Shown here piece by piece: positions 3,043 to 31,038 of a stretch of 43,587 nucleotides of DNA (the first letter of the stretch is position 1; each line of letters opens with the position of its first letter). The position numbers and the translations under genes are program-made. This stretch comes from Limisphaerales bacterium (GTDB lineage: Bacteria > Verrucomicrobiota > Verrucomicrobiia > Limisphaerales > UBA11358). The stretch lies in contig PLHK01000154.1 of assembly GCA_003139955.1 (NCBI GenBank), positions 1-43,587 of the forward strand, read 5' to 3'. Under the pieces are notes generated by a model. It had not been told where the DNA came from. It saw only the letters and a list, made by a program, of their open reading frames with translations, and ran no database searches.

Positions 3043-3043
3043 T

Positions 3044-3982
3044 ATGGGCTGGATCAAGCGAAATCTTTTTTTTGTGATCGGCGGCGTGGTCACGCTCGGG
3101 TTGCTGGGCGCGGGCGGCTTTTATATTTACACGGGCTGGGACCGGAATTCCCAGGCGGCGGAGAAGCTCAATGAGATCTACGGTACGCTCCGCAATCTCC
3201 AGACCGAGAAATTTACCGGCGGCAACGGGCAGGTGGACAACAGCCGGACCGCCCGGGAGCAGCAACAGCAGTTGCGTTCATGGATTGACAGCACCACCAA
3301 TTATTTCCAGCCCATCTTGGCCATCCCGGCGGACGACATCACCAGCGAAAATTTTGCCGAAGCCTTGCGCCGCACGGTGGATGCTTTGCAACGCGAGGCG
3401 GGAACTGCCGGCGTCACGCTGCCGCCCGGATATGATTTTTCATTTTCCGCCCAACGTCTGCTGGTCAACTTCGCTCCCGGCAGTCTGGAACCGCTGGCGG
3501 TGCAGTTGGGCGAGGTCAGGGTGATTGCGGAAACGGTTTTTGCCGCGCGCGTCAATGCCTTGGACGGCATCCAGCGTCTGCGGGTGTCGGGCGATGACAT
3601 GGCGGGTTCGCAAGGCGACTACACCGACGAGCATGCGGTCACGAATAATCTGGCCGTGCTCACGCCTTATGTCGTCACGTTCCGCTGTTTCACGCCGGAG
3701 CTGGCGCGCGTGGTCACCGGTTTTGCGGATTCCCCGAATATGTTTTTGGTCAAGGCGATCAATATCCAGCCGGCGGGCATATCATCTTCAGCACCGGAAA
3801 ATGCCGCGCCCGGAATGCCGGGTTTGATGAATGGGCGTCCGCCGTGGGGGTTCGGCTTGCCGGGTCCGGCGCCGGTTGCGCCGCCGCCGGCGGACAAGGG
3901 CGGGTTGCCAACGGTTTTGAAGGAGCAGCTCCTGCGCGTTACGTTGATAGTGGAGATCGTGAAACTGTTGCCGAAGAGTTAA
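3044..3982 (+). CDS. Amuc_1100-like membrane-anchored protein (PilO-type position)
   Basis: An inner-membrane protein with a large periplasmic part. It has one N-terminal transmembrane helix at about residues 7-29 (VIGGVVTLGLLGAGGFYIYTG), then a helical stretch containing LNEIYGTLRNLQTEK, two alpha/beta-looking segments, a Pro/Gly-rich linker near 255-285, and a final strand pair ending LKEQLLRVTLIVEIVKLL. This order matches what I remember of Akkermansia muciniphila Amuc_1100: anchor, coiled coil, two small domains, Pro/Ala linker, then a terminal KEQVFVQVSLNLVHF-like strand. Length is also close (312 versus about 317). Gene order beside a PilM-like gene and a secretin supports this. Identity is inferred from pattern and context, not from a search. 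The ATG lies one base after the preceding stop. Confidence 0.7.
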   Translation: MGWIKRNLFFVIGGVVTLGLLGAGGFYIYTGWDRNSQAAEKLNEIYGTLRNLQTEKFTGGNGQVDNSRTAREQQQQLRSWIDSTTNYFQPILAIPADDITSENFAEALRRTVDALQREAGTAGVTLPPGYDFSFSAQRLLVNFAPGSLEPLAVQLGEVRVIAETVFAARVNALDGIQRLRVSGDDMAGSQGDYTDEHAVTNNLAVLTPYVVTFRCFTPELARVVTGFADSPNMFLVKAINIQPAGISSSAPENAAPGMPGLMNGRPPWGFGLPGPAPVAPPPADKGGLPTVLKEQLLRVTLIVEIVKLLPKS

Positions 3983-3983
3983 G

Positions 3984-4772
3984 ATGCAATTTCTCAAAAA
4001 ACATTACGAAAAGATTTTGCTGGGCATTGTACTGGCGGGTCTGATCGGCGTGCTGGTGTTCATGCTGTTCTACATCGCCGCCGACAAGCAGGCCATGGAG
4101 CTGACCACCAGCGGTATTATCAATGCGTCGGCCAAGGTCTTGCCGGATCTGGATTTGACGGCCAATGACGCGGCGCTGGCGCGGCTGCAATCGCCCGTGC
4201 AACTGGATTTGGAAACGGGCAACATGGTGTTCAATCCGTTTGAATGGCAAAAATCGCTGGATGGCTCACTGATCAAAAAGGACACCAGCGTCGGCGCCCA
4301 AGTCGCGGTGGTGACCGGCATCACGCCGTTGTATCTGGTGCTGACCTTGGAATCGGTCATGACCAATGAGCTGGGCGCCCGCTATGTCATCGGCGTGGAA
4401 AAACAGGCGGCGGCCACACCTGCCAAGCGGCACAAACAGCAGCACTATGTTTCCCCGGGCGAAAAACCGAACGATACGTTCGCGTTGCTTGAGGTCAAGG
4501 GGCCGCCGGAAAACCCCGATGCCCTGGTGTTGAAAATTTTGGATACCGGCGAGACCGCCTCGGTTGCCTATGGCAAGCCCTTCCGCCGTGTGGATGGTTA
4601 CCTGGCCGATCTCCGCTACGACCCCGAGAAAAAAGTTTTTCACGGCCGCCGCGCGGGTGATAAAATTTCCTTTGGCGGCACGGATTATGTCTTTGTCGAT
4701 ATCAAGCCGGATGGGTTGACCTTGTCCGACCAGTCGAATGGAAAAAAAACTCCTTTGCCATTTGCGCCCTGA
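3984..4772 (+). CDS. membrane-anchored pilus-complex protein, PilP/Amuc_1099 position
   Basis: This 262-residue protein has one transmembrane helix at about residues 9-31 (ILLGIVLAGLIGVLVFMLFY) and the rest predicted outside the cytoplasm. The C-terminal part, from about residue 165, has short strand-like repeats ending FGGTDYVFVDIKPDGLTLSD. That is reminiscent of the small beta domains of PilP/GspC that contact the secretin. I do not recognise a named domain. Its place between the Amuc_1100-like gene and the secretin, and the one-base gap after the upstream stop, support a role as the periplasmic link to the secretin. Function is inferred from position. Confidence 0.6.
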   Translation: MQFLKKHYEKILLGIVLAGLIGVLVFMLFYIAADKQAMELTTSGIINASAKVLPDLDLTANDAALARLQSPVQLDLETGNMVFNPFEWQKSLDGSLIKKDTSVGAQVAVVTGITPLYLVLTLESVMTNELGARYVIGVEKQAAATPAKRHKQQHYVSPGEKPNDTFALLEVKGPPENPDALVLKILDTGETASVAYGKPFRRVDGYLADLRYDPEKKVFHGRRAGDKISFGGTDYVFVDIKPDGLTLSDQSNGKKTPLPFAP

Positions 4773-4823: not shown

Positions 4824-7127
4824 ATGACAAAAGCCGCCATCCTTTGCTTCGGCCTCGCCGCTCTGGTCGTCTTGCCCGCCACTGTGCCGGCCCAAGATGA
4901 TAATGATTCCACCGCCATGGCGGTCAACGAAGCGGTGTTGCGCCAGGCCAACACCATCGTGCTGCGCGGCAAACTGGCCGAGGCCAGCCACGCCAACCAG
5001 TCGGGCGATATTGTCACTGCGGCCAAGCTCTATCAGGAATCGTGCGAACTTGTGCAGCAAATTGGTTCGGGCATTGATCCCGAAGCGGCGCAGGCGGTCA
5101 GCGGCCTGGCCACCACGCGGCTGACATTGGCGAAGCAAGATCAGGCCAATGGTGATTTGCGGGATGCCGCCACGCAGGCGCAGCAGGTTCTGAATGTGGA
5201 TCCGAAAAATCCGGACGCGCTGGCTTTCAAAAAGCAGAACGACCAGATGCTCGCCGCTCTCAAGGGGCAGATTCCGAGTCCCGCCGCTCTGGATCAGGCG
5301 GCGCAAGTGGCGGCGCAAAAAACGGACGCCGGCACGCTGGTGCAGGATGGAAAATTACTTTATGAGATGGGCAAGCTGGATGATGCGGAAGCCAAATTAA
5401 GTCAAGCGCTTGTGCTGAACCCGGATGATCCGGCGGCCTTTTATTATTTAAACCTGATCCAGCAGGGCCGATTTGCCCGCGAAGCGGCGATGCATACGGT
5501 GGACACGCAGAAACGCATGCAGCACGTCGAAAAACAGTGGGTTTTGCCCACCACCAGCTATTCTTTGCCCTCACCCAATGCCTACGCCACCAACAATCTG
5601 GTCTATACGGGACCCGGTCGGCAGACGATCATTTCAAAGCTCGATCGTATCCACCTCGACAACGTGTCCTACGACGGCCTGCCGTTGAGCGAAGTGCTGC
5701 GCAACTTGTCGGAACAATCCAAGCTCCGCGATCCCGAACACAAGGGCATCAATTTTTTGATCAATCCTAACCCGGATCAATCCGGTGAACCGGTCGCGGC
5801 GACGGCGGCGGGCGGCGGTATTTATGGTCTTCGTGGCGGCGCGGTTCCGACAATCGATCCGTCCACTGGATTGCCGGTCGCCGCCGCCACGGCTGACAGC
5901 GGTAACGGTGGCGAGCCGGTGGATGTCGGTTCCTTCATTGTGAAAATTCCCAGTCTGACAGATGTCCGGCTGGCGGATGTTTTGGACGCCATTGTCATGG
6001 TGACCGACCATCCGATCAAATATTCGGTGGAAGATTTCGCCGTGGTTTTTTCTGCGAAAGGCGCGGATGTCCCGCAGTTGTTTATGCGCAGTTTCAAGGT
6101 GGATCCCAACACATTTTATTCCGGCCTCGAAAGCGTTGGTTCGGCAACGTTTGGCTCTATCAACAATAATAATAACAACAGTGGCAGCAGTAACGGTAAC
6201 AACAACAATAACAACAATAATAACAGCAACGGCGGCGGGAGCGGTGGTGCGGTCGTCGGGGTGGTGAACGCCTTTTCCGGTGAGGGCAGCCTACGCACCA
6301 GCGGTAACAACCAGAATGGCGGTAATTATGGTGGTAATAATGGTGGTAATAATCAGAACGGTGCGGTTGCCAACCTTGGATATAATGCCGGCAACACTGG
6401 TGGCGGTGGTGGCGGCAATATCGGTGGTGGTGGTGGCTTGCGTTATGTCACAACCATCAATCCGGCTTCCGAAGTGAGTGAGGCTGCCCGGGCATTTTTC
6501 ACGACGCTCGGGGTCAACCTGCAAAATCCGCCGGGAAAATCTGTTTTTTTCAACGACCGCTCGGGTTTGCTTTTTGTGAAGGCCACGTCGGATGATTTGG
6601 ACACGATCGAACGGGCCATCGAGATTTTGGATAAGGTCGCTCCGCAGGTGCATATCAAGTCGCGCTTCATCGAGGTGCAGCAGAACGATAACAAGGCGCT
6701 TGGCTTCGACTGGTATCTGGGTCAGGTAAACGCGGGTAACAGCGTGGTGGCCCAGGGCGGCAATCCTGGTTCGTTGAATGTGCCGACCTCATCGGCAAAT
6801 CCGCTGGGGGCGTTTCCCGGCGCCACGGCGGCCAATACGATTGGCGATACCGGCCAGGAACTATTTTCCAGCGGCCTGGCCAGTGGATCGGGATCCGCCA
6901 CCGCCACGATCACGGGCATATTGACCAATCCGAATTTTCAGGTGGTCATCCACGCGCTACAGCAGCGGCAAGGTTTTGAATCCTTGGCCGAACCCGAGAT
7001 AACCACCACCAGCGGACGCCAGACCCAAATCCGCGCCACCCAGATCATCACCGTCATCACCGGAGTCAATTACGAACAGGGCACGGCGGCCAGCATTGGT
7101 AATGGCACCACCGGCACGACACAATAA
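4824..7127 (+). CDS. pilQ: secretin, N-terminal part: TPR, N-domains and first part of the barrel/gate
   Basis: An exported outer-membrane secretin component of 767 residues. A signal peptide (about residues 1-23, cut after VPAQ) is followed by TPR-like helices at about 30-215. Secretin N-type domains come next (about 270-430), then an Asn/Gly-rich low-complexity linker (447-540). Another N domain follows (SGLLFVKATSDDLDTIERAI), and then the start of the secretin family domain (VHIKSRFIEVQQNDNKALGF). The frame stops just after ITVITGVNYEQG, the position of the VPVxTG gate segment in other secretins. The missing half is in the next gene. Akkermansia Amuc_1098 is the likely counterpart, from memory. 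It may be a real two-piece secretin; see the findings. Confidence 0.85.
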   Translation: MTKAAILCFGLAALVVLPATVPAQDDNDSTAMAVNEAVLRQANTIVLRGKLAEASHANQSGDIVTAAKLYQESCELVQQIGSGIDPEAAQAVSGLATTRLTLAKQDQANGDLRDAATQAQQVLNVDPKNPDALAFKKQNDQMLAALKGQIPSPAALDQAAQVAAQKTDAGTLVQDGKLLYEMGKLDDAEAKLSQALVLNPDDPAAFYYLNLIQQGRFAREAAMHTVDTQKRMQHVEKQWVLPTTSYSLPSPNAYATNNLVYTGPGRQTIISKLDRIHLDNVSYDGLPLSEVLRNLSEQSKLRDPEHKGINFLINPNPDQSGEPVAATAAGGGIYGLRGGAVPTIDPSTGLPVAAATADSGNGGEPVDVGSFIVKIPSLTDVRLADVLDAIVMVTDHPIKYSVEDFAVVFSAKGADVPQLFMRSFKVDPNTFYSGLESVGSATFGSINNNNNNSGSSNGNNNNNNNNNSNGGGSGGAVVGVVNAFSGEGSLRTSGNNQNGGNYGGNNGGNNQNGAVANLGYNAGNTGGGGGGNIGGGGGLRYVTTINPASEVSEAARAFFTTLGVNLQNPPGKSVFFNDRSGLLFVKATSDDLDTIERAIEILDKVAPQVHIKSRFIEVQQNDNKALGFDWYLGQVNAGNSVVAQGGNPGSLNVPTSSANPLGAFPGATAANTIGDTGQELFSSGLASGSGSATATITGILTNPNFQVVIHALQQRQGFESLAEPEITTTSGRQTQIRATQIITVITGVNYEQGTAASIGNGTTGTTQ

Positions 7128-7140
7128 TCAACAACCAGCG

Positions 7141-7147
7141 AGAAGGA
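7141..7147 (+). promoter_or_regulatory. ribosome binding site of secretin second half
   Basis: AGAAGGA (within GAGAAGGA from 7140) lies 5 bases before the ATG at 7153. It is stronger than the sites before most genes in this cluster, several of which start one base after, or overlapping, the previous stop with no visible Shine-Dalgarno. It argues that the second secretin half is started independently rather than reached by frameshifting. Confidence 0.6.
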
Positions 7148-7152
7148 TTCAA

Positions 7153-7800
7153 ATGAAAGATTTACCAGCAAAGAACGGCATGAGACTGGCGCTTGTGACC
7201 CTGTTGTTGCTCGCCGCCGCCGCCCGGGCGCAAACCGTCAACAATCAGGCCGGCACTTCCGCCATCACCTTCGACACGCAACCGGTCGAGACCGGGCCGA
7301 TCCTGGATGTCGTGCCGTATGTTTTGTCGGATGGCTACACCATCAATATGGCGCTCATTCCGTCCGTGACTGTATTTAACGGCTATGACACGCCGCCGAC
7401 CATTCCCAACGTCACCGGCAACCTGAATGTCGTTCAACTGCCCGTCATTCTTCCGGACTTCACCGTGCGGCAAGTGGTCACCACCGTGAATGTCTGGGAC
7501 AACCAGACCGTCGTCCTCGGCGGCTTGATTTCCTCGCAGATTCAATCTACCAAACAGCAGGTTCCCGTCATTGGCGATCTGCCTTTGTTGGGTCGCCTGT
7601 TTCAAAGCCAGAGCAAGACGACGCAGAAAAAGAACCTCATGATTTTTGTGACCGCCACTCTTGTTGACCCCGCCGGCAACCGGGTGCATTCCGATGATGA
7701 TTTGCCGTTTGCCCAGAACGCATTCCCATCCCAGCCGCCGGACGCCGGCAAGGTGACGGAAACTGAGCAGAAAATTCCGCCGCCCGTGGTGTCTGAGTGA
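7153..7800 (+). CDS. secretin, C-terminal part with its own signal peptide
   Basis: This gene encodes the second half of a secretin barrel as a separate exported protein of 215 residues. The ATG at 7153 follows GAGAAGGA with good spacing, and the protein begins with a clear signal peptide (MRLALVTLLLLAAAARAQ, cleavage after ARA). The mature part starts at the point where the upstream frame stops: FDTQPVETGPILDVVPYVLS, then LPVILPDFTVRQVVTTVNVW, DNQTVVLGGLISSQ, and the classic secretin end VPVIGDLPLLGRLFQSQSKT with LMIFVTATLVDP. A longer in-frame reading from 7096 exists but would lack an RBS and bury the signal peptide. The last four bases overlap the GTG start of the exonuclease gene. Confidence 0.85.
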   Translation: MKDLPAKNGMRLALVTLLLLAAAARAQTVNNQAGTSAITFDTQPVETGPILDVVPYVLSDGYTINMALIPSVTVFNGYDTPPTIPNVTGNLNVVQLPVILPDFTVRQVVTTVNVWDNQTVVLGGLISSQIQSTKQQVPVIGDLPLLGRLFQSQSKTTQKKNLMIFVTATLVDPAGNRVHSDDDLPFAQNAFPSQPPDAGKVTETEQKIPPPVVSE

Positions 7801-16100: not shown

Positions 16101-16564
16101 TGGCCGAAAAATTCGATCACAAGAATAACAATCATCTCCGGTGGGTGCCGACCTATGCCGGCTACTATAGCTCGACCAATCTGGTCTATCCGCCGGGCGT
16201 GACCAATACCGTCAATGCCGCGCTGGCGGAGAGCGCGGATATTGACTCCGATGGCGACGGCACGCCCAACAGCACCGACCCGACGCCGTTTCTGGTGCCG
16301 GCGCAGTTGAACTTCACCGAGACCATCACCAACGTGCCGCCGGTGTCGGTGCAGTTGCAATGGCAGACGGTCGCCAACGGCACGAATTATGTCTATTACA
16401 AGACCAACCTGCTCTCGCCGGGCTGGCTGCTGCTGACCAATTTTATCTCGCCGTTCCCGTATCCGTCGCCGCCCGGCTACGTCTCGGTGTTTGATCCGCT
16501 GACGAACGCGCCGCACTATTACCAGGTGGTCGTGCAGCCGGATTTGCTCTATGGCTCCCAATGA
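13139..16564 (+). CDS. very large secreted protein with C-terminal Ca-binding-type Asp repeat
   Basis: An exported protein of 1141 residues. The signal peptide ([19 protein letters not shown]) ends near residue 35. The body is Thr/Asn/Gly-rich and strand-dominated, with no family I can name with confidence. A middle segment (about residues 600-740) has a [20 protein letters not shown]-type stretch reminiscent of surface repeat modules. Near the end, [19 protein letters not shown] is a thrombospondin type-3-like calcium-binding Asp motif, often placed before cell-surface or export end domains. It is followed by a last small domain ([20 protein letters not shown] ... YYQVVVQP). The stop overlaps the next ATG by four bases (ATGA). 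Structural or adhesive surface roles are likely but unproven. Confidence 0.8.
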
Positions 16565-19500
16565 ACCGCGGCCCGAAAACTTTTGAAAATGAAACCCGCG
16601 CGGCCTGGCTGCGACGGAATGACTGGAGAAATGTTGTGAAAACGATTCGAAATAAAATGGCCGGTCATCTGCCGGTGCGGCGTTTGGTTGCCGGTGCCTG
16701 GCTCAAGCTGGCCCTGGTGCTGGGGTTTGCCTTGCTCGCCGGGCTGGCGGGCGCCCAGCCGGCCAACGATATGTTCACCAATGCCGTGACCATCTCCGGC
16801 CTGTCCGGCACGTTGTCCAGCAGCAACAACGGCGCCACCTTGGAACCGGGCGAACCCACCTTCATCAATGCGGATGATTTCGCCAGCGTGGATCAGTCCG
16901 TCTGGTATCAGTGGACGGCACCGTCGAACGGCGTGGCGTCCTTTGACACCTTCGGCAGCAGCTTCGACACGGTGCTGGCGGTTTATACCAACAACCCGGT
17001 GTTCACCACCAACACCGTGCTGACCACCAATATATTCATGGTGGTGACCACCAACACCGTGATCACCGCCAGCGCCGCGACCGTAACCAACCTTTCGCTC
17101 GTGGCGGCCAACGACGATTATATCACCTTGGTCGTGGTTGCCAGCCGGTTGACCTTCATGGCGGTGCAGGGCACGACTTATTACATCTCGGTCAACGGCA
17201 ACGCGGATCCGGCCCCCGGCTACAGCGATGCCGGCACCTTTGTGCTGGATTGGAGCGAAACCGTTCCCACCATCCCGTCGGGGACGTTTTACTTCACTTC
17301 ACCGACCTATACCGCGAGCGACCAGGAGAATCATCAGCCAAATAATCCTTATAGTCCGAGTGTGTATGAAAGCTGGCGGGGGGCGCGGGTAACCATATCC
17401 CGCACGAACGGCTGTAGCGGCCGGGTGGATGTGCCTTACTACGTGATTACTCAAGGCTATACGAATATTATCCCCGGCTATACCAATGTGTTTGGTACGT
17501 TTACAAATATAGTCCCGACCTACACCAATTCAGTCCCCTATCTTACCAATAATGGCTCGGTGGTTTTCGATGACTACCAGATGGGCGCGGATATCGCGGT
17601 GCCGGTTATATCGCTTAAGACCTTGACTGTCACCAATATAACGCCCGTCGTCTCCGGCGGCGTGACCAACGGTTATACGACCAACATTGTTTCTTATGCG
17701 CCTTCCGCGTCCATGACCGTGATGATGGGAACGCCGACCTTGGATCCGCTCGAATCTCCTGATTTGCTCCCGCCGGCGGCCGTTGGTGGCACCAATGGCA
17801 CCAGCGCAATCATCAATATATTGAGCACGACCTTGCAGGCGCACGGGGGTTCCGGGCCGGTCTTTTTCAATATCGAACGGTGCTGGTTCCGCACCGACCG
17901 AAATGTGAATGGAGGCAGTGCCTATATTTACGTCTTTCCCTCCGCCCTGCCCACGCAGCCGGGCCTAAACTATCTGGTGGATTATAACATTGATTATGGC
18001 GGCAATCACACCTTCCCGCTGCAGGCCGATTCAGATTACGCCAATCCCGGCACTGATTTTACCGATGTTTCCGGCACTTTGACTTATACCTATGGACAAA
18101 GCCCGATTCCCGAGCCGATTGTCATTCCGATTCATGCTATTTCTTCGGCGGCATTTAATGAAGACCTTCAAATTACCCTCCAAAATCCAAGGGATTCAGC
18201 TGGCAATACGCTGGCGCTCGGTCAGGTTAACACGGCCACGCTGACCATCCTGTTCAATGTCCAGCCGGCCGGTGCGGTGGATCAGGGCTGGAACCCGGAT
18301 GGTGACGCCAATTCCATTCCGCCGTACCTGAAATATCCCGGCACGCAGGGCGGTGTGAGCGACAGTGCCAATGGCAACGGCGGCACGGTCTATGCCGTGG
18401 CCGAGCAGCCCGACGGCAAAGCCGTGGTGGCCGGTAGTTTTATTTCCTTTGACTCCAATCCCTACAACCGCATTGTCCGGCTGCTGAACAACGGCTATCA
18501 GGATCCCGCGTTTCTGGCCGCGCCGAACAGCGGCGCGAATGACGCCATCTATGCCCTCGCCTTGCAGCCCAACGGCCAGATCATCATCGGCGGCAATTTT
18601 ACTTCCTTCAACGGGGTCAATCGCAACCACATCGCCCGTTTGAACGCGGATGGGTCGGTGGACACGACGTTCAATCCCGGCTCCGGTGCCAACGGCAAGG
18701 TTTGGGCGGTGGGATTGCAATCCGACGGCAAGATTTTCATCGCCGGCGAGTTCACGTCCTACAACAGCACCAACTGTAATTATCTCGCGCGCCTGAATCC
18801 GGACGGGTCGCTCGACACCGGCTTCAATCCCGGCAGTTCTTTGAACGGGCCGGTCTATGCGCTGGCCGTCCCGCCATATGCCCCGATCAACCTTACCAAC
18901 GTCACCGCCGGGGGCGCCGCTGAAGTGGACACCCCGGTCAGCTTGGGTTCGTCTACTTCCGGGACGTTGAGCGTCAATTATAACATGCTGTCCATTCCCG
19001 ACGATATGCGGGTTTTTTACGGCACCACCAACGGGGTTTTGATTTATGACACGGGCAACGTCAGCGGCATTGGGCAGTTTGTGCTTCCCTTTGGCCCGAC
19101 GAATGGCATCACCACCAATCTGATCACCATCGTCATGGATCAGGGTAATGGCACGCCGGGCACCTATTGGTCTTATTCCGCCTCGATCGTCACTGCCGGT
19201 TCCACGCAGGTTTATGCGGGCGGCGCCTTTAATCAGGTCAACGGGGCCAGCTATGGCGGCGTGGCCCGGTTCAATGGCGATGGCACGGTTGACTATACCT
19301 TTGCGCCCGGCATCGGCACTTATAATCCCAACACCGGCAACACCGATCCGATTTATGCCCTGGGGCTGCAAGCGAACGGGCAGTTGCTGGCGGGCGGCGC
19401 TTTTTCCACGGTCGAGTTGACCAGCTTCAATGGCATTTGCCGTTTTAACACCGACGGCACGTTGGATTTGAGCTTCAGCACCCTGGGTGCCACTAATGGC

Positions 19501-22500
19501 ACCTGGAATCCGGCCACCGGCATCGCCGACACGGTTGACGCCATCACCGTGGACACGAACCAGAACATCCTGATTGGCGGCAATTTCATGAATGTCAACC
19601 AGACCCGGCGGGTGGGCATCGCCCGGCTGCTCACCGACGGCAGTCTGGACACCAGCTTCATGGACACCGCCTATAACCAGTTCGCCGGCGTCATCAACCA
19701 TTACCACAACCCGGATGTCGTCAACACCAATGATTATCCGCAGGGCAACCATCGGAATAGCATCGATACCATCGCGGTGGAGGCCGGCGGCAACGTGATT
19801 GTCGGCGGCAACTTTTTACAGGTCGGCGGCGGTTCCTACGGCCATTCCGGCTCGATTGACAGCGTGGTGGGCACGGGTGTGAACGGCATCATTGCTAATG
19901 GTCGCATGGATGTCCATCCGCGCAGCAACGTGGCGCGGTTGGTGGGTTACAGCACGCCCGGCCCCGGCAACCTAGAGTTTTGCAACTTTAACATCCCCCC
20001 GAACACCTACACCGTGGACAAGGATGCCGGCACCCTGTTCCTGACCATGATCCGCACCAACGGCAGTTTGGGCAGCATCGCGGCGAGTCTCATTTCACCG
20101 CCCGGGGCCGTCGGCCAGCCGGGCATCGCCACCGCGGGGACGAATGGCAATTTCACCATCGGCAACACCGAGCCCGAATGGGCGACGATGTGGTCGAGCT
20201 CATGGATGAAGAGCGACGGCTATGAAGGCCAGAATAATTATGGTTACCCGGGCAACGAGGCGGATGAGACGTTTCAAATTTTCAACAACACCAACATCAC
20301 CGGCAACCTGAACGCCAATCTGGCCCTGACCGCGCCCAATCCGAACCTTTTCTTCCTGGGCGGCGAGGAGATTCCCCTCGGCGCGGCGCTGGGGGCCAGC
20401 CATGCCAGCCCGCTGACCATCATTGATGACAATTTTCCGCCCGGCACCTTTGGTTTCAGTTCGCCGACGTACACCGTCAATGGCAGTTCCAATGTGGTGG
20501 CCATCACCGTGGTGCGCACCAATGGCACCGGCGGCAGCGTGAGTATTTCCTACGCCACGTTCAACGGCACGGCCAGCAGTCCGGCCAACTACACGACGGT
20601 GAGCGGCACCTTGACCTTCAATCAGGGGGTCACCAGCCAGACCTTCACCGTTCCCATCATACCCGGCACCGTCACCGGTGCGGATAAGACCTTTAACCTG
20701 ATTCTCTATAGTATCACCGGCGGCGGCAGCTATGGTGTCACTAACGCCGCCGTCACCATTGTGAACAATGTTTTTGGCGCGGGCCACATCGCCTTTGCCT
20801 TTGCCACCAACACCGTGAGCGAAACCGCGGGGGTGGCCGGGGTCGTGTTGAACCGTCTGGGTGCCAGCAGCGGCACCTTGCAAGTCACGGCGGTCACCGG
20901 CGGCGGTTCGGCCGTCAATGGCGTGAACTATGTCGGCACCACGACGAACCTGCAGTGGGTAAACGGCGATGCGCTGCCCAAGACCATTTACATTCCGGTC
21001 ATTCATGACGGGATTTACACCTCCAATCTGACGGTCAACCTCTCGCTGACCAATGGGCTGGCGGGCGGCAAGGCGAGTCCCAATGTTCTCGGGCTTTCCA
21101 CCCTCACCAACTCGACGCTCGTAATCACCAATGTGGATTTCCCGGGGACGGTGCAGTTGTCGTCCGGGGTCTATTCGGTCAAGAAATTCGCTGGGTTCGC
21201 GCTGATTCCGGTGATCCGCACCGGTGGCAGTGCCGGCACCATCACCGTGACCAACTATACGGCCGACGGCACGGCGCTGAACGGTGTGAATTACACCGGC
21301 CAGACCAATGTGCTGGTTTTCACCAACGGGCAGGTCAGCCAGTCTTTCACCGTGCCGATCACCCCGGGGGCCACCAACGGGCTGGTGGCGCTCAACCTCG
21401 GCTTGACCAATGCCGTGGCGCTGAACACCTCCCTGCCTTGGAACGCACTGGGCACCCCGTCAACGGCGGTCTTGAACATCATTGACACCAGTTTGGTGAA
21501 TGAACCGCCCGGCTCGCCGGATACCACTTACAGTCCGCTGGCTGCGTTCAACCAGCCCGTGTTCGCCCTCGCGCTGCAACCCAACAATCAATTGCTGGCC
21601 GCCGGTGATTTCACCATGGCCAACGGCGTGCCGCGCCAGCGCGTCGCGCGCTTGAACTCGGACGGCACGCTGGACGCGTCGTTCTCCCTGCCGTCTTCGG
21701 CCGATGGCGCCAATGCCTCGGTGCGCGCCCTCGCCCTCCAGTCGGACGGGCGGATTTTGGTGGGCGGCTATTTCACCAATTTTAACAGTGTGGTCATGAA
21801 TTATATCGCGCGCCTCAATTACGACGGCTCGCTGGACAGCCGCTTCAATCCCGGTGCGGGCGCGGACAGCCCGGTTTTTGCCCTGGGTCAGACGTTTGTG
21901 AACGGCGCGGCTAAAGTTCTGGTGGGCGGCGCCTTTGCCTCGCTCAGCGGACAGGTGTTCAACTACATCGGCCGGCTGAATGATGACGGGTCGCCCGATA
22001 CGACGTTCAATGCGGGCGGTCTCGGCGCGAACGGGACGGTTTTTGCACTGGCCGTCCAGACGGATGGCAAGGTGGTCATCGGCGGTGACTTCACCGCCTA
22101 TAACAATACGCCCGTCAACCACGTCGCCCGCTTGAACGTGGATGGTTCGCTGGACCTGAACTTCACCAATGCGGTTTCCAATCCGGCGGCGGGGGCGAAC
22201 GGTTCCGTCCGCGCGATTGCGATCCAGCCGGACGGCAAGATTTTGATCGGCGGCCTGTTCACCAATGTGGATGGCGGCAACCTGAACTACCTTGCCCGGC
22301 TGAACACCGATGGCTCATTGGACGCCGGTTTCACGCCGGGCGTCGGTGCTGACGGCGCGGTGTTGAGCATCGCGTTGCAGACGGATGAGCGGATTGTTTT
22401 GGGCGGCCAGTTCACGCATTGCAGCGGGGTCAGCCGCAACCGCCTCACCCGGCTGAATCCGAATGGCACGGTGGATCCCACCATCAATTTTGGCGCGGGG

Positions 22501-25416
22501 GCCAACGATTTTGTGGCGGCCGTGGCCATTCAGGAGGCCACCATCGCGGGCTATCCGACCAATGTCCCGGATGAGAAGCTCATCATCGGCGGCGGGTTCA
22601 CCCAGTATTTTGGCCAGCCGTATTCGCACATCGCGCGGATTTACGGCGGGTCGGTCAGCGGCGTTGGCTCGTTTGAATTTTCCTCGCCCACCTATTCGGT
22701 GAATGAGAATGGCTTGAACGCCTTCGTCACGGTCATCCGCACCGGCGGCACCAGCGGCACCAATGCGAACGGCACGGGCGATATCTTTGTGCCGTTTGCC
22801 ACGGCCAACGGCACGGCGGTCGCGGGCGTCAATTATAGCAATGCGACGACCACTCTGGATTTTCCCGCCGGCGAAGTCATGCGGACCGTCACCATCCCGG
22901 TGAAGGATGACGGCGTCATCACCCCGAACCTGACGGTGAACCTGTCGGTCAGTCCCGTTTTGCCGGCCACCGATGGCGACCAGCCGGCGGCGGTGCTGAC
23001 GATCATCAACGACGACAGTTCGATCAGTTTCTCCTCGTCGAGCTATCAGGTGGCCAAGAACGTCCAGAGTGGCGTCGAACAGATTGACGTTTTGCGGCTG
23101 GGCGGCACCAACGGCACTTCCACGGTCGTGTTCAACACCACCACCAACGGCACGGCGCTGCCCGTCACGGATTATACCCCGCAGACGAATGTGGTGGTCA
23201 CGTTCAATCCGGGCGCCTCGGACGTCCAGGTGCCGATTCCCATCAACAACAACGGGCTGCCCGAAGGCAACCAGACCGTCACCCTCCAGCTCACCAATGT
23301 GACCGGCTCGGCCTTGTATAGTCCGTCGAACGCCACGCTGACCATCATCGACACGGCGCATCTGCCGGGGGTCTTGTCCTTCTCCGCGACGAATTACAAT
23401 GTCGGCTCGTCGGACGGCAACGCCTACCTCACGGTGTATCGCACCAACGGTTTCTCCGGCATCGTCTCGGCGAATTACACCCTCGTGCCGGGTACGGCGC
23501 AGCTCGGCTTGGACTACACGACCACCGGCGGGTTGGTGACGTTTGGTGACGGGGTGACGAATGCCACCATCACGATTCCGCTGGTGCCTCAAGCCCAGGT
23601 CAAACCGCCGGTAAGCCTGTCGGTCTCGTTATCCAACCCGGCTGGCGGCGTGACGCTGGCCAGCCCGACCAATGTCACGGTGACTATTTCCAGTGCGATC
23701 GCCGGCATTTCCTTCGTGACGGCGACCAACACGATGGCCGAGAACAGCGGCGCGGTGGTCGTCAACGTCCAGCGCCTATACGACACCAACAGCATCGTCA
23801 CCGTGAATTACGGCACGGTCAACGGCTCGGCCGTGGCCGGGCTGAATTACACCGCCACCAGCGGCTTATTGCAGTTCACCAATGGCGAGACGCTGAAGTC
23901 CATCACCATTCCGCTGTTGTATGACACGAATGTCACCGGCGATTTGAATTTCAGCGTCCAGTTGTCCAACCCGACCGGCGGCGCGCAATTGCTCGCCCCG
24001 AGCAGCACCGTCGTGATCGAGCAGGACGCGGATGCCGGCTTGAGCTTCAGCGCCGGCACGATGACGGTGCTGAAGAATTCCGGTGTCGCCAACGTCACGG
24101 TGGTCTGCTCCAACCCGCGGGTCGAGCCGGCGGGCACCAACGGCATATCGGTCGGTTATTACACGGTGGATGGCAGCGCCAAGGCGGGCACGGATTATCA
24201 AGCCGCCAGCGGCACGCTCGTTTTCAATGGCGGCGTCGCGACCAACACCTTCCCGGTGACCATTTACAACAACACTCTGGTCAGCAGCAACAAGGTCTTC
24301 TCCGTGGTGCTGACCAATGCGACGGCCCCCGGCCAGATCACCCCGCCCGGCACCGAGTCGGTGGTCATCGCCGAAAGCAACGCCGGGTTGAGCTTCTCGC
24401 AATCCGGTTACACCGTGCTCAAGAATGGCGTTTTTGCCAATATCACCGTCAACCGGACCGGCTATACCAACAGCGTCGTTTCCGTCAACTATCTCGCCAC
24501 CAACGGCACGGCGGTGAACGGCATCAACTTTGTCTCGACCAACGGCGTCTTGGTCTTCAGCAATGGCGTGGTCAGCCAGACGTTCTCCGTGCCCATCATC
24601 GCCAACAGCGTCGTCAACCCGAACCTCACCGTGCTGCTGCAATTGCTCAATCCGGTCAACGGTTACCTCGTGCCGCCCAGCGTGGCGACCCTGACCATTC
24701 TGGAGAACGGCGGCAGCTTCGTCATCCCGGCGGGCGCGCAGGTGGTCACCAATTACACGTCGCATTTGTCTGACGGTGTCATCGGTTCCAACGACACGGT
24801 GCAGGTGCTGTTCGGGCTGCGCGACAGCGCCGGGCTGAACGTGACCAACCTCATCGCGTATCTGCTGACCACCAACGGCGTGGTTTCACCAAGTCCCGCC
24901 AGCCAGGTCTATGGGCCGCTGACGGTCTATGGCCACTCGGTGTCGCAGCCGTTCACCTTCACGGCGCACAGCACCAACTCGTTCGCCATCGCGCCGACCT
25001 TTGCGCTCTATGACAATGCCAAGCCCATCGGCACGGCGAGTTTTCATTTCAGCATCGGCAACTGGACGACCAGCTTCGCCAGCACCAACGCCATTGTCAT
25101 CCTGGATGACACCAACGCCTCGCCGTATCCCTCCGCCATCAATGTGAGCGGCATCGGCTCCACGCTGATCAAGGCCACTGTGACGCTGAACAAACTGACC
25201 CACACGTACCCGCATGACATCGATGCGCTCGTGGTTTCGCCGGCGGGAACGAATACCTTGATCATGGCCCATGTCGGTGGTGGCACCAACGGCAACAGCG
25301 TGACCAACATCACCCTGAACTTTGACGACGCGGCCGCCTCGTCGTTGACGCAAAACCGGCTCACCACCAGCACCAACAAGCCGACGCAGTTTTATCCGGT
25401 GCAAAATTTCCCCTGA
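16561..25416 (+). CDS. giant secreted protein: PPC-like, delta-60 propellers, Calx-beta array, truncated P-domain-like end
   Basis: A 2951-residue exported protein. The start at 16561 overlaps the upstream stop. A GTG at 16636 with GGAG seven bases upstream is a strong alternative and would give a shorter signal peptide ([19 protein letters not shown]). Modules in order: PPC-like domain (about 65-230, [15 protein letters not shown]); a Calx-beta-like region; seven delta-60 repeats (about 605-1130) with an inserted beta domain in the fourth; four Calx-beta repeats (about 1140-1650); seven delta-60 repeats (about 1657-2032, for example [18 protein letters not shown]); six Calx-beta repeats (about 2035-2718); and the first half of a P-domain-like sandwich ending at QNFP. 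Known roles of such modules are calcium-dependent adhesion and scaffolding. No catalytic motif is seen. Confidence 0.88.
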
Positions 25417-25449
25417 TGCCATGTCGCGCACCTTTCAACCAGAGATTTT

Positions 25450-27903
25450 ATGAGCAAGACGTTTTTCAAGATGGGACTCGGCCTGCTGGCGGTGGCGGGA
25501 CTGGTCTGGCCGGCGGCGGCGGCGTTGCCCGGCCTGACGACCTTGTCCGGCCATGTGCCCGCCATGGTCTCGCAACTGGTTTCGACCGGCCGGCTGGTAT
25601 CCACCAACCATCTCCGTCTCGCCATCGGCTTGCCCTTGCACAACCAGGCCGGTTTGGATGCGCTGTTGCAGCAGATCAATGATCCCGCCAGTCCCAGCTA
25701 TCATCACTATCTGACGCCGGATCAGTTTGCGACCCAGTTTGGTCCCACCCCGGCGGATTATCAGGCTGTGCTGGATTTTGCCCGGACCAACGGATTTACC
25801 GTGACGCGCACCCACCCCAACCGGATGCTCGTGGATGTGGATGGCCAGGTTGCTGATATTGAAAAAACCTTTCATGTCAAACTGTCCACGTATCATCATC
25901 CCAAGGAGCCGCGGGATTTTTTTGCCCCTGATGTTGAGCCGTCCGTGGACGCGAATCTGCCCATCTTGAACGTTCAGGGCCTGAACAACTATGTTGTGCC
26001 GCACCCGTTTTTAGAAAAGATGCCGGCGTCGAAAATCAAACCGGGCATTGGTTCCGCCCCGGGTGGTGGTTACCTGGGTTCGGATTTCCGCAACGCCTAC
26101 GCGCCGGGCACCGCCTTGAACGGCTCCGGCCAGAGTGTCGGTCTGTTGCAGTTTGACGGATACTATGCCAGCGACATTGCCACGTATGAAGGTCTGGCCG
26201 GTTTGCCCAATGTGCCGTTGCAGAACGTGCTGCTGGACGGTTTTAATGGCACGCCGGGTGTGAATAACGACGAAGTGTGTCTCGATATCGAAACCTCCAT
26301 CTCGATGGCTCCGGGATTGTCCCGGGTCGTGGTGTTTGAGGCCGGCCCGGCCGGCAATGCCGATGACATCTTGAGCAGCATGGCGGCCAGCAATACGATC
26401 AAGCAGTTAAGCGCTTCCTGGGGCTATCCCGTGGATGCGACCACGGAACAATTATATAAACAGCTCGCCGTGCAAGGGCAGACCTTCTTGAACGCCTCCG
26501 GCGATGGCGATGCGTGGGTTGGCCCGATCCCTTATGGCTCTTGCGAGGATCCGAACATCACCATTGTCGGCGGGACGACGTTGACCATGAACGGCGTGGC
26601 CACCTCGTACGCGTCGGAAAAAGTTTGGAACTGGGGTTTCGTCGGCGATTACAATTGGAATCCGGATGGATATGCCGGCAGCAGCGGTGGCATCAGCACC
26701 GATGTGAACATCCCCGGCTGGCAGCAGGGCATCAGCATGGCCACCAATCATGGTTCCACCACCTATCGCAATGTTCCCGACGTGGCCTTGACGGGCGACA
26801 ATGTGTTTATCGTTTCCAGCGGCGGCAGCCAGAGCCTGGTGGGCGGCACGAGTTGTGCCTCGCCCTTATGGGCCGGCTTCATGGCGCTGGTCAACCAGCA
26901 GGCCGCCATCAACGGCAAGCCTTCCGTCGGTTTTCTGGCTCCGGCGGTTTATGCTCTGGCCAAAACCGCCAGCTATACGAATTGTTTTCATGACATCATT
27001 GCCGGTGACAATACTTGGGATCAAAGCCTGACCAACTTTTTTGCCGTGCCGGGTTATGATCTGGCCACGGGACTCGGCACCCCCAATGGCATCAACCTGA
27101 TCAACGCTCTTGCCGGCGGCGGCGGCGGCGGGCCGATCATCTCCGCGCCGCTGCCGCCGTGGGGCAATACTTTGAGCGTCATGAATGGCGGCAATCCCAA
27201 CGGCGACTGGTTTCTGTTTGTGCAGGATGACAAGGTGGCGGACACCGGCATCATTTCCAATGGCTGGTCGGTCGCGCTCACCACCGAAAGCCCGGTCGGT
27301 TACGCGGCGGACAACCAGGTTTACGCCACCCCCGCCAGTGTGACGCTCACTGCCAACACCACCTGGCCGGTCTCGCTGTCCGTCACCAATTATGGCCCGT
27401 CGGCCTCCACCAATGTTTACATCACCGATACCCTGCCCGTTCCCGGCACGGGCGTCACGCTGGTTTCCTCCAACGCCACCGCCGGCGCGGTAAGTGTCAC
27501 TGGCGACACGCTCACGTGGACGGTCGGCAACCTCCCCGTCAATGCCGGTGCCGGGTTGACGTTGAATTTTTACGCCAGTTCCGCCGCCTTGGGCCTCTAC
27601 ACCAACACCGCCCAGGTGTATGCGACCACCACCGATCCGAATCCCGACGACAACATCAGCGCGGCCACGCTGCTCGTCTCCGGTTCGGCCACGCCGCCGC
27701 AATTGACGACCGGCTACACCGTTGGCACCGGCGCGTTCCATTTGTCGGTCACGGGCGCGGCCGGCCAGTCCGCCATCGTCCAGGCGTCCACCAACCTCGT
27801 TTCCTGGGTGCCCGTCTTCACCAACGTGATTCCGTTCAGCTACACCAACTTTGATTCGACCAACTACCTGATGCGCTTCTACCGGGTCGTGGTCGGCCCC
27901 TGA
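25450..27903 (+). CDS. S53 (sedolisin/kumamolisin) peptidase fused to half a P-domain and a DUF11-like tail
   Basis: A secreted serine-carboxyl endopeptidase of 817 residues. Signal peptide 1-25, then an S53 activation prodomain (YHHYLTPDQFATQFGP), then the catalytic domain. The Glu/Asp pair is E275/D279 (DEVCLDIETS), the oxyanion Asp is D352 (NASGDGDAW), and the nucleophile is S468 in GGTSCASPLWAGF. The calcium-site end is GYDLATGLGTPNG. A Gly-rich linker at about 558-562 is followed by the second half of a P-domain-like sandwich (NPNGDWFLFVQDD ... ISNGWSVALTTE), a DUF11-like repeat (SVTNYGPSASTNVYITDTLP) and a verrucomicrobial end domain (QASTNLVSWVPVF ... FYRVVV). The first half of that sandwich is at the end of the upstream gene, 33 bases away. 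S53 enzymes usually work at acid pH; what it cleaves is unknown. Confidence 0.92.
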   Translation: MSKTFFKMGLGLLAVAGLVWPAAAALPGLTTLSGHVPAMVSQLVSTGRLVSTNHLRLAIGLPLHNQAGLDALLQQINDPASPSYHHYLTPDQFATQFGPTPADYQAVLDFARTNGFTVTRTHPNRMLVDVDGQVADIEKTFHVKLSTYHHPKEPRDFFAPDVEPSVDANLPILNVQGLNNYVVPHPFLEKMPASKIKPGIGSAPGGGYLGSDFRNAYAPGTALNGSGQSVGLLQFDGYYASDIATYEGLAGLPNVPLQNVLLDGFNGTPGVNNDEVCLDIETSISMAPGLSRVVVFEAGPAGNADDILSSMAASNTIKQLSASWGYPVDATTEQLYKQLAVQGQTFLNASGDGDAWVGPIPYGSCEDPNITIVGGTTLTMNGVATSYASEKVWNWGFVGDYNWNPDGYAGSSGGISTDVNIPGWQQGISMATNHGSTTYRNVPDVALTGDNVFIVSSGGSQSLVGGTSCASPLWAGFMALVNQQAAINGKPSVGFLAPAVYALAKTASYTNCFHDIIAGDNTWDQSLTNFFAVPGYDLATGLGTPNGINLINALAGGGGGGPIISAPLPPWGNTLSVMNGGNPNGDWFLFVQDDKVADTGIISNGWSVALTTESPVGYAADNQVYATPASVTLTANTTWPVSLSVTNYGPSASTNVYITDTLPVPGTGVTLVSSNATAGAVSVTGDTLTWTVGNLPVNAGAGLTLNFYASSAALGLYTNTAQVYATTTDPNPDDNISAATLLVSGSATPPQLTTGYTVGTGAFHLSVTGAAGQSAIVQASTNLVSWVPVFTNVIPFSYTNFDSTNYLMRFYRVVVGP

Positions 27904-27909
27904 TCCGGC

Positions 27910-28494
27910 ATGAAACTCTGCGGCTTGACCGGCGGCGTCGGGATGGGCAAATCCACCGCCGCCGCTTTTTTTTCAGGACTCGGCGCGCGCGTCGTGGACA
28001 CCGATGAGCTCGCCCGCCAGTTGGTCCGACCCGGCCAGCCCGCCCTGGCGGAGATCCAGACGGTCTTCGGCGGCGAATTCCTGGCCGCCGACGGAACCCT
28101 GAAGCGCGACGAACTGGCGCGCCTCGTGTTTGCCGATACCAGCGCGCGCCAAAAGCTCGAGGCCATTTTACACCCGCGCATCCGTGAGGCGTGGCTCGCG
28201 CAGGTGGAAAATTGGCGGCAGGAAAACTGCCCGCTCGCCCTCGTCGTCATCCCGCTCCTGTTTGAGACCGCCGCCGAAAATCATTTTGAAAAGATCATCT
28301 GCGTCGCCTGTTCGCCGGCATCGCAACGCGAACGCCTCGCCGCGCGCGGCTGGTCGCCGGAACAGATCCGGCAGCGCAGCGCGGCGCAACTGCCCGTGGC
28401 GCAGAAAATCGCGCGGTCACATTATGTTCTCTGGACCGAAGGTAAACTGGCGTCGCACGCGCAGCAGGTGTCCCGCGTCGTTGCCGGCTTCTGA
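27910..28494 (+). CDS. coaE: dephospho-CoA kinase
   Basis: Cytoplasmic enzyme of the last step of coenzyme A synthesis; it phosphorylates the 3'-hydroxyl of dephospho-CoA with ATP. The P-loop GLTGGVGMGKST is at residues 5-16, then VVDTDELARQLV (substrate-site Asp), a LHPRIREAW block, VVIPLLFETA, and the lid region ERLAARGWSPEQIRQRSAAQ. The length of 194 residues is typical. It starts 6 bases after the S53 peptidase stop, so it is likely transcribed from the long upstream unit or from a promoter inside it. No functional link to the surface genes is evident. Confidence 0.95.
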   Translation: MKLCGLTGGVGMGKSTAAAFFSGLGARVVDTDELARQLVRPGQPALAEIQTVFGGEFLAADGTLKRDELARLVFADTSARQKLEAILHPRIREAWLAQVENWRQENCPLALVVIPLLFETAAENHFEKIICVACSPASQRERLAARGWSPEQIRQRSAAQLPVAQKIARSHYVLWTEGKLASHAQQVSRVVAGF

Positions 28495-29523: not shown

Positions 29524-31038
29524 ATGGCAAAAAAGGCCGCTGCGAAACCAACCGCCGCTTCACCCCGGCTGAAATCTTCTTCCCTCCTCGACACCCGCGT
29601 CGTCTATTGCGGCGACAATCTGGAATCGCTCGCCAAGCTGCCGGATGCCTGTGTGGATTTGATCTACATCGACCCGCCCTTCAACTCCAATCGCAACTAT
29701 GAAGCCTTTTGGGGTGAGACCAAGGAGAAGCGCGCCTTTGAAGACCGCCACGAGAACACCAAGGCCTACATTGACTATATGCGCCCGCGCTGCGTGCAAC
29801 TCGCCCGCGTCCTCAAAAAGACCGGCAGCTTTTATTACCACTGCGACTCGCACGCCAGCCACTACGTCAAGGTCATGCTTGATGGTCTTCTTGGTGAAAA
29901 TAATTTTCAGAACGAAATCATCTGGAAGAGAACCAGCAGCCACAGTGATGCAAAACGTAAATTTGGTGACCAAAGTGATTCAATTATGTTTTACACGGGT
30001 GGCGACGCTAAATATACGTTCAATCCGCTTTACCAACCCTATTCTCAAGAATATATCAAATCACATTACAGCAATGTTGACGCCGATGGCCGTCAATACA
30101 CCACTCGTGATTTGAGAAGTCCATCTCCAAGGCCAAATCTGACTTATGAATATAAGGGTTACAAACCACATCCCAATGGCTGGTCAATCTCTCGCGAAGT
30201 GATGGAAAAATTGGATGCCGAAGGAAAGCTTTATTTCCCGAAGGATCAAGACGGCAGAATCCGAATCAAAAATTATTTGGATGAAATGCCCGGCACACTC
30301 TTTGGCAATGTTTGGGATGACATTGAACCTCTGAACTCACAAGCTGCCGAACGTCTTGGTTATCCAACGCAAAAGCCGCTCGCACTTTTGGAGCGAATGA
30401 TTAAAGCCAGCAGCAACGAGAACGACATTGTGTTAGATGCGTTCTGCGGTTGCGGCACGGCGCTCGTCGCGGCGCAGAATTTGAAACGCCAGTGGATTGG
30501 CATTGATATTTCGCCCACCGCCTGTCGCGTCATGGCTAAACGCCTGCGCGACGTTTGCGGCTTGCCGGAAAGCGAACCGCTCTGGCGCGCCGGACGCGGC
30601 TTCGTCGTCCGCGACCTGCCGTGGACGGTGGAGAAGCTGCGCGTCATCCCGCCGTTTGAATTTGAGAACTGGGCCGTCATCGCCCTCGGCGGCATCCCCA
30701 ACAAAGTGCAGGTCGGCGACATGGGCATTGATGGTCGCATCTTCCCTGTGAGCGCCAATGCCACGCCGCGCAAAAAACAGGAAGGCGAACTCTTGCTGCA
30801 AGAACGCTGGTATCCGATTCAGGTAAAACAAAAAGACAAGGCCGGTCGCCCGGACATTGACGCGTTCGAGGCCGTGATGATGCGCGAGGATTGCGAGAAA
30901 GGTTTCTTCATCTCGTTCGATTTCAGTTCGGATGCGTTGACGGAGATTGACGCGTTCTTCAAGCGCAGCCACAAAGTCATCGTTGCCCTGACCGTGCAGG
31001 AAATCTTGGACGAGCAGATTGCGAGGAAGCTGGCATGA
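29524..31038 (+). CDS. beta-class DNA adenine methyltransferase fused to Mrr-like PD-(D/E)XK nuclease domain
   Basis: A probable restriction-modification protein of 504 residues. Motif IV DPPF (D50) comes before the SAM-binding motif DAFCGCGTALVAAQ (D305), the beta-class order seen in type III Mod and related N6-adenine (or N4-cytosine) enzymes. The target-recognition region lies between them (about 125-290) and is visibly more AT-rich than both flanks. After residue 360, GDMGIDGRIF (D403) and YPIQVKQ (Q433, K435) form a D...QxK nuclease core like Mrr-type endonucleases, so modification and cleavage may sit on one chain. Two decayed pieces of a related gene flank the locus. The stop overlaps the next ATG by four bases (ATGA), so it is coupled to the HEPN-type gene. 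The target site cannot be predicted. Confidence 0.88.
   Translation: MAKKAAAKPTAASPRLKSSSLLDTRVVYCGDNLESLAKLPDACVDLIYIDPPFNSNRNYEAFWGETKEKRAFEDRHENTKAYIDYMRPRCVQLARVLKKTGSFYYHCDSHASHYVKVMLDGLLGENNFQNEIIWKRTSSHSDAKRKFGDQSDSIMFYTGGDAKYTFNPLYQPYSQEYIKSHYSNVDADGRQYTTRDLRSPSPRPNLTYEYKGYKPHPNGWSISREVMEKLDAEGKLYFPKDQDGRIRIKNYLDEMPGTLFGNVWDDIEPLNSQAAERLGYPTQKPLALLERMIKASSNENDIVLDAFCGCGTALVAAQNLKRQWIGIDISPTACRVMAKRLRDVCGLPESEPLWRAGRGFVVRDLPWTVEKLRVIPPFEFENWAVIALGGIPNKVQVGDMGIDGRIFPVSANATPRKKQEGELLLQERWYPIQVKQKDKAGRPDIDAFEAVMMREDCEKGFFISFDFSSDALTEIDAFFKRSHKVIVALTVQEILDEQIARKLA

Follow-up and report, generated by a model that had tools for sequence, protein, structure and literature searches.

A P-domain divided between a giant secreted protein and the exchangeable peptidase encoded beside it in Limisphaerales bacteria

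Introduction

Can one small protein domain be divided between two neighbouring genes and still be put to use as a unit? The question is raised by a locus in 43,587 nucleotides of DNA (the window), which make up one whole contig (C127) of a 2.79 Mb metagenome-assembled genome that is 92% complete and, among named relatives, comes nearest to 'Verrucomicrobia subdivision 3' / Limisphaerales genomes from lake, peat and soil. At this locus a giant secreted protein ends in the first part of a P-domain, and the remaining part appears in the peptidase encoded next to it. P-domains commonly adjoin secreted peptidases. A sequence-only reading of the window had proposed that a beta-sandwich is shared between the two products, that the peptidase gene had landed in an older giant gene, and that the halves might pair outside the cell. 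Here we consider the division itself, its distribution and origin, the enzymes found at the locus, and the fit between the two halves.

Results

The P-domain is bisected between adjacent genes

The giant (2951 aa; 16,561–25,416, + strand, as for all features in this paragraph) comprises, from N- to C-terminus, a signal peptide, DUF5122/delta-60 beta-propeller repeats, Calx-beta repeats and P-domain half 1, which makes up its final ~111 residues (25,081–25,413) and stops at the identical end residue in all split giants. The C-terminus reads ...QNFP and is followed by a TGA stop codon (25,414–25,416). After a 33-nt intergenic gap (25,417–25,449), which is purine-rich and has a ribosome-site-like AGAG, plus TTTT ahead of the ATG, comes an ORF of 817 aa (25,450–27,903) with its own start and signal peptide, hereafter the slot S53 peptidase. 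Its signal peptide, MSKTFFKMGLGLLAVAGLVWPAAA (25,450–25,521), has an MSKxFxK-like start and is followed by a Pro-kumamolisin activation domain (25,576–25,989; Pfam PF09286, E 1.1e-30), an S53 (sedolisin/kumamolisin) catalytic domain with Glu/Asp/Asp/Ser catalytic positions (26,077–27,111), an 11-residue linker (27,112–27,144) that is Gly-rich in the window and variable in length across loci (9–27 aa), and P-domain half 2, APLPPWG...WSVALTTE (27,145–27,288). A DUF11 domain (27,319–27,672; Pfam PF01345), which directly follows half 2 in intact giants as well, and a C-terminal tail domain, ...QASTNLVSWVPVFTN...FYRVVVGP (27,697–27,900), complete the protein. The next gene, coaE (dephospho-CoA kinase; 27,910–28,494), is the constant downstream neighbour of split and intact forms alike.

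The strings quoted in the sequence-only reading lie where it had placed them, with APLPPWGNTLSV, NPNGDWFLFVQDD and ISNGWSVALTTE C-terminal to the catalytic domain of the S53 ORF, and its claim of a sandwich shared between the giant and the S53 protein is borne out by comparing separate with joined halves. Against Pfam P_proprotein (PF01483; gathering cut-off 21 bits), half 1 alone matches positions 9–51 at 16.6 bits and half 2 alone matches positions 51–84 at 17.2 bits, both under the cut-off, whereas the joined halves (166 residues) match positions 9–83 at 30.0 bits (E 5.7e-7). The profile is bisected at position 51, and on these scores a chance resemblance of the halves to a P-domain is ruled out. 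When joined and intact domains are combined into one profile, the break in split genomes falls at about 109/110 of 163 positions, and the alignment of intact with split forms has no gap at the junction: intact proteins read ...TAYFPVTAFP-TPAPPAPYATNL..., and the split second half starts IISAPLPPWGNTL. In the intact relatives the domain occupies a single polypeptide; 30 genomes of the genus spread it over two ORFs. A PDB sequence search for P-domain relatives gave no match.

Modelling the two fragments together, a check that the earlier reading had called for, was carried out with AlphaFold2 on window DNA 25,063–27,297 translated through the stop, with TGA read as W. In this read-through model (pTM 0.74), pLDDT is mostly 82–98 in half 1 and 80–96 in half 2, and falls below 50 at residues 119–152, an artificial and disordered linker. 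Half 1 contributes eight strands and half 2 three, mostly at high confidence, the P-domain fold being an eight-stranded jelly-roll. The halves are compatible with one domain, a result that stays short of proof in trans because the alignment includes intact P-domains. In a control fold without half 1, half 2 has a pLDDT of about 30, but the alignment behind it was shallow and the S53 C-terminus failed too, so the comparison is confounded. Among the matches listed, a Foldseek search with the fusion model returned the S53 part (1t1e) and not the P-domain.

Several other features of the window deserve mention in their own right. PilM (1,165–3,042) and two PilN/PilO-like membrane proteins (together 1,165–4,772) lie upstream of a secretin-type gene, so that the block of large secreted proteins, of which the giant is the last, has a type IV pilus/type II secretion-like operon immediately ahead of it. 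The secretin-type gene (TPR, Secretin_N; 4,824–7,800) looks broken: the ORF at 4,824–7,127 stops within the secretin region and the remainder continues in another frame (7,096–7,800), which may reflect an assembly frameshift or a genuine lesion. On the other side of the locus, an N6/N4 DNA methylase (29,524–31,038) with a weak Mrr-like restriction-domain match is possibly a solitary restriction-modification gene.

The split is conserved across genomes as two separate genes

Forty-nine genomes of the genus were searched with the joined sequence, and the loci were then read individually. Both halves lie on one contig in 27 of the 49, and three more loci are truncated by contig ends, which brings the split to 30/49; one genome (G005) has an uninterrupted P-domain in a 3246-aa giant, and neither half is present in 18/49. 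In none of these 49 is one half present with the other demonstrably missing. At the 27 loci the giant terminates in FP (FH once) with a stop codon immediately after (TGA in 26/27, TAA in 1/27), and the peptidase gene comes next in every case. Identity to the window drops to about 39–50% in half 1 and 43–50% in the half 2 region with neither half lost, and the split is conserved across about 30 species of uncultured lake and soil bacteria. It is also found on one contig binned to a different family of the same order (G132); this 3.9-kb contig, from a 73%-complete genome, could be mis-binned.

Every named split-form sequence comes from a metagenome-assembled genome, which would suit an artefact of assembly or binning. 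Yet the identical junction recurs in about 30 genomes whose assemblies are independent and stem from lakes, peat and soil, and it does so at widely varying protein identity. With so many independent metagenome assemblies in agreement, we reject an assembly artefact and give artefacts of either kind next to no weight.

The earlier reading had also placed both parts in one reading frame. This is true of the window, where the two ORFs are in frame with a single TGA between them, and it would suit bridging at the level of expression, in which stop read-through, frameshifting or hopping yields one long polypeptide with an internal peptidase. The shared frame is nevertheless a coincidence: over the 27 loci, the offset between giant and peptidase is 0 in 8, 1 in 7 and 2 in 12, and several gaps hold further stops. 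Moreover, every peptidase has its own start, a ribosome-site-like sequence and a signal peptide. Because the frame offsets differ between loci, joining by read-through or frameshift is rejected in favour of two separate proteins, and bridging of any form is extremely improbable.

The split derives from an intact giant at the same locus

An order-wide search, covering 320 genomes in total, showed that giants elsewhere in the order are mostly 2,800–3,500 aa long and have a whole P-domain followed by DUF11, and that they occur in many other families. An uninterrupted version, which the sequence-only reading had suggested looking for, exists in these giants, beside coaE, and reads ...KPTxxxxxxFP-xPAPxxPYG.... 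Two observations that would have told against that reading are likewise contradicted: homologous giants do not all end naturally at QNFP, FP ends being confined to the split lineage, and S53 relatives elsewhere do not carry a complete domain at this place, having neither the half nor a full P-domain. In three genomes (G005, G079 and G092) coaE lies directly 3' of an intact giant, matching its position 3' of the split pair in the genus, such that relatives hold an intact homologue at the same locus, as in gene fission. Since giants with intact P-domains are found at this coaE-flanked locus, the intact form is ancestral and the split is the derived state. The proposal of an S53 gene landing in an older giant gene thus holds as far as a peptidase gene inside an older giant gene is concerned; the split is, however, old and conserved rather than a one-off event, and the present S53 is not necessarily the first arrival, given the repeated exchange of catalytic domains described below.

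When joined and intact domains are placed in one tree, the split loci fall into one supported group (99/99) together with the intact giants of G005 and G079. The AU test does not reject a single clade of split forms (p 0.208); the G005 and G079 giants are placed within the split clade on weak branches, so that one origin is tentative, and there may have been a reversion or a second split.

A transposon target-site duplication was sought at the junction and none was found. The sole 20-nt direct repeat around the catalytic cassette (95%) is rich in GGC and has one copy in the signal peptide and the other in the linker (25,505–25,524 and 27,108–27,127), where it flanks the swappable pro-catalytic cassette; it may be a low-complexity chance match, and Gly-rich linkers are not general among other loci. 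In another family, an S53 gene (locus L193, 9,538–12,768 of G162:C38) lies directly 3' of an intact giant. This S53 and the giant-less slot S53 of G009 (L158) are the closest kin of the largest slot S53 clade, and a source of the inserted gene is possibly to be sought there.

Different peptidases occupy the same slot

Both parts that characterize S53 peptidases, an activation domain (PF09286) and a subtilisin-like catalytic domain (1t1e), are present in the slot S53, and together they align full length with pro-kumamolisin 1t1e (E 8.4e-40 by sequence, 4.1e-33 by Foldseek). The catalytic set E275, D279, D352 and S468, which marks the sedolisin/kumamolisin family, is invariant in 19 slot S53s; the enzyme is putatively an acid protease. 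Half 2 is carried by 27/27 slot S53 ORFs and by 0/53 other S53 domains, nearly all of which come from the same genus; the idea that S53s generally carry a half P-domain is rejected on that count.

The enzyme in the slot has been exchanged. In an 80-row S53 tree, the slot catalytic domains form four separate clades among ordinary S53s, with at least 4 label changes forced by well-supported branches. The tree of joined halves has 11 changes of peptidase type, and sister pairs with a support of 100/98-99 carry different enzymes (G014/G015, G028/G025, G043/G038 and G012/G046). A single S53 insertion followed by vertical inheritance is rejected by the discordance of these trees. In two genomes (G014 and G132) an unrelated enzyme, a reprolysin-like metallopeptidase, occupies the slot; it too is followed by this half 2, DUF11 and tail, and its gene is preceded by the same AGAG/TTTT gap pattern. 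The G014 enzyme has HEVGHNLGLHH, which fits the HExxHxxGxxH zinc motif, and scores 26.9 bits against Reprolysin_3 (cut-off 22.4); the G132 enzyme has HEVGHNLNLHH, with N for G, and at 21.1 bits is slightly under that cut-off. A start of MSKxF[FLS]K (or MN[SR]xFLK) is found in 13/27 slot genes across S53 clades and in 0/55 others, the latter including two slot genes cut by contig ends, and the G132 metallopeptidase begins MSNTFFK. Because the start motif is common to S53 clades and to this metallopeptidase, the swapped unit seems to be the stretch between signal peptide and half 2.

At one locus (L051; G010:C43, contig positions 23,812–24,831, minus strand), the split giant itself has an S53 domain near its N-terminus in addition to the downstream slot S53. 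S53 domains seem to have entered large secreted proteins of this lineage repeatedly.

The linker and the choice of enzyme bear on whether the halves become joined covalently, be it that the peptidase or a partner ligates them, or that a self-releasing cut in the linker leaves half 2, DUF11 and tail on the giant. S53 enzymes process themselves, and the linker between enzyme and half 2 is variable and partly Gly-rich. The linker has, however, no conserved cleavage or ligation motif, and the slot also houses a metallopeptidase; covalent joining is very unlikely.

The two halves diverge in step and are absent from the same genomes

Neutral gene fission would account for the split with no pairing at all: half 1 would be a leftover C-terminus, and half 2 would be kept through its fusion to a DUF11 and tail needed for sorting of the peptidase. 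The tail is indeed a general C-terminal module on other S53s and giants, and half 2 could ride along with it. Against this, half 1 is conserved to its final residues (KPT...FP), and both halves are under purifying selection, with Nei-Gojobori dN/dS of 0.08–0.42 for half 1 and 0.06–0.22 for half 2 (dS is large in some pairs). Furthermore, the divergence of half 2 follows that of half 1 and not that of its own enzyme. In pairwise distances over 25 slot loci, half 1 and half 2 correlate at r 0.52 (0.50 in a partial Mantel test given coaE, p 0.0005), whereas half 2 shows no such correlation with the catalytic domain alongside it in the chain (r 0.02, p 0.50), even though that domain belongs to the same protein as half 2 and is located between the halves on the DNA. 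Part of the correlation between the halves could be due to linkage, as they are close on the chromosome; simple linkage alone is insufficient because the intervening catalytic domain is uncorrelated with half 2.

Absence is shared as well. All 18 genomes of the genus without half 1 are also without half 2, and in 11 genomes without both the block g10685-g13139-coaE is still recognisable. At that block, G003, G009 and G016 have no giant but an S53 gene of ~1340 aa, whose product bears the usual tail and is devoid of half 2; the S53 at a giant-less locus thus comes without the half P-domain. As these giant-less S53s have the tail without half 2, as half 1 is conserved to its end and as half 2 tracks half 1, neutral fission is unlikely.

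We further asked how well the split domains keep the hallmarks of the whole fold, for which we took the 32 positions that at least 90% of 34 intact P-domains have in common. On average, 81% of the 18 positions in half 1 and 91% of the 14 in half 2 are kept, the main departures being replacements of Leu by Val or Ile, plus a single Gly position. Taken with co-absence, distances and dN/dS, the two fragments have been selected and retained together, as in gene fission.

Two departures lie in half 1 (numbered from window base 25,081): a Leu that is near-invariant in intact domains at position 51 is Val in 25/28 split domains, and another at position 61 is Ile in 17/28. It is possible that the interface was retuned after the split.

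These split-specific changes in the half 1 core, a sign of some post-split adaptation, would also suit halves refitted to separate jobs, for example with half 2, DUF11 and tail as an export or anchor module and with half 1 binding another partner or capping the giant. But the core swaps are conservative, as expected of a re-tuned interface, both halves retain nearly all the remaining hallmarks of the whole fold, and the two are absent from the same genomes. We regard separate jobs as distinctly unlikely, and prefer a pairing of the two halves.

In 44 of its 46 matches the tail domain (~68 aa) forms the very end of the protein. It is common on secreted proteins, with many other S53s and giants among its bearers, and is absent from split giants; scans against Pfam and NCBIfam models gave no match. 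Because of its extreme C-terminal position in 44/46 matches, the tail is probably a sorting or anchoring signal, and apparently an undescribed one. As the split giant is without the tail and a docked peptidase would supply it, this suggests that the split giant, too, is held or sorted via its enzyme.

Discussion

We consider it likely that the halves re-form the P-domain in trans and dock a swappable peptidase, together with its tail, onto the giant. What we infer here is the pairing and docking, their place (periplasm or cell surface) and the anchoring by the tail; pairing and docking are well supported by conservation, co-absence and correlated divergence. On this account, a peptidase gene that brought along its own start and signal peptide would have arrived within the P-domain of an ancestral giant gene, after which the giant would have terminated in the first half of the P-domain and the downstream peptidase would have borne half 2 along with the giant's former DUF11 and C-terminal tail. 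The two proteins, made from adjacent genes, would be exported separately. Outside the cytoplasm the halves would associate non-covalently and rebuild the beta-sandwich, half 2 giving the strands lacking in half 1; such domain completion after export would be the simplest mechanism, because half 1 is without the last strands and half 2 supplies them. The rebuilt sandwich would dock the peptidase and its tail at the C-terminus of the giant. The halves would then be a fixed plug and socket, and the enzyme between signal peptide and half 2 an exchangeable part, drawn from several S53 clades or from a metallopeptidase. On balance, we favour the broader view that one bisected extracellular domain has become a natural docking port: the scaffold would present one part, enzymes encoded upstream of the other part would plug on, the cargo would be swapped while the port stays constant, and the scaffold would rely on the docked enzyme for its C-terminal sorting tail.

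If pairing is shown, the case could count as a docking system of a new kind: a split-domain attachment of natural evolutionary origin, by which interchangeable secreted enzymes are mounted on a giant protein in dozens of species. An insertion expected to destroy a protein would instead have created a new modular complex, and extracellular protein engineering would gain a native split tag, probably a non-covalent one. The arrangement also offers a handle on the role of the enormous Calx-beta/propeller proteins of uncultured Verrucomicrobiota.

In the open-access literature on split P-domains, on sedolisins with P-domains and on gene fission, to which our search extended, we found no description of one domain divided between a giant and an exchangeable peptidase. 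The ingredients, namely P-domains, S53 peptidases and fission into complementary products, are already known; their arrangement is new as far as the open-access literature shows. Like the proprotein convertase P-domain (PF01483), the joined halves span the profile above the gathering score; unlike it, the domain is here divided between two gene products. The peptidases here, moreover, are S53 or reprolysin-like instead of subtilisin/kexin (S8). With kumamolisin and sedolisin (MEROPS S53), the slot S53 shares pro- and catalytic domains that align with 1t1e and conserved catalytic residues; it differs in adding a half P-domain, DUF11 and tail, of which the half P-domain is missing in the other S53s of the same genomes.

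Comparable logic is found in assemblies of separate chains. In the cellulosome, enzymes with a constant dockerin module dock on the cohesins of a scaffoldin, and by analogy a constant docking module would here put different catalytic domains on a large scaffold; cohesin and dockerin, however, are separate and complete domains, whereas plug and socket here would be parts of a single domain. In donor-strand complementation and in split domains of the SpyTag/SpyCatcher type, an extracellular beta-sandwich is completed by strands of another chain. The present case would be unlike these in being natural and non-pilus, in that the partner holds about one third of the domain and carries an exchangeable enzyme, and in that no isopeptide chemistry is to be assumed.

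A parallel in gene history is mitochondrial cox2 of Campsomeris wasps, in which insertional gene fission gave two genes, with the two products proposed to come together again as a heterodimer (PMC5374615). There as here, one gene was split by insertion and the products are complementary, pairing being in our case what we infer. Unlike in the wasps, where a cluster of ORFs split the subunit (PMC5374615), the second fragment is here fused to the inserted gene, the cut goes through a single small domain, and the enzyme that was inserted has since been exchanged several times.
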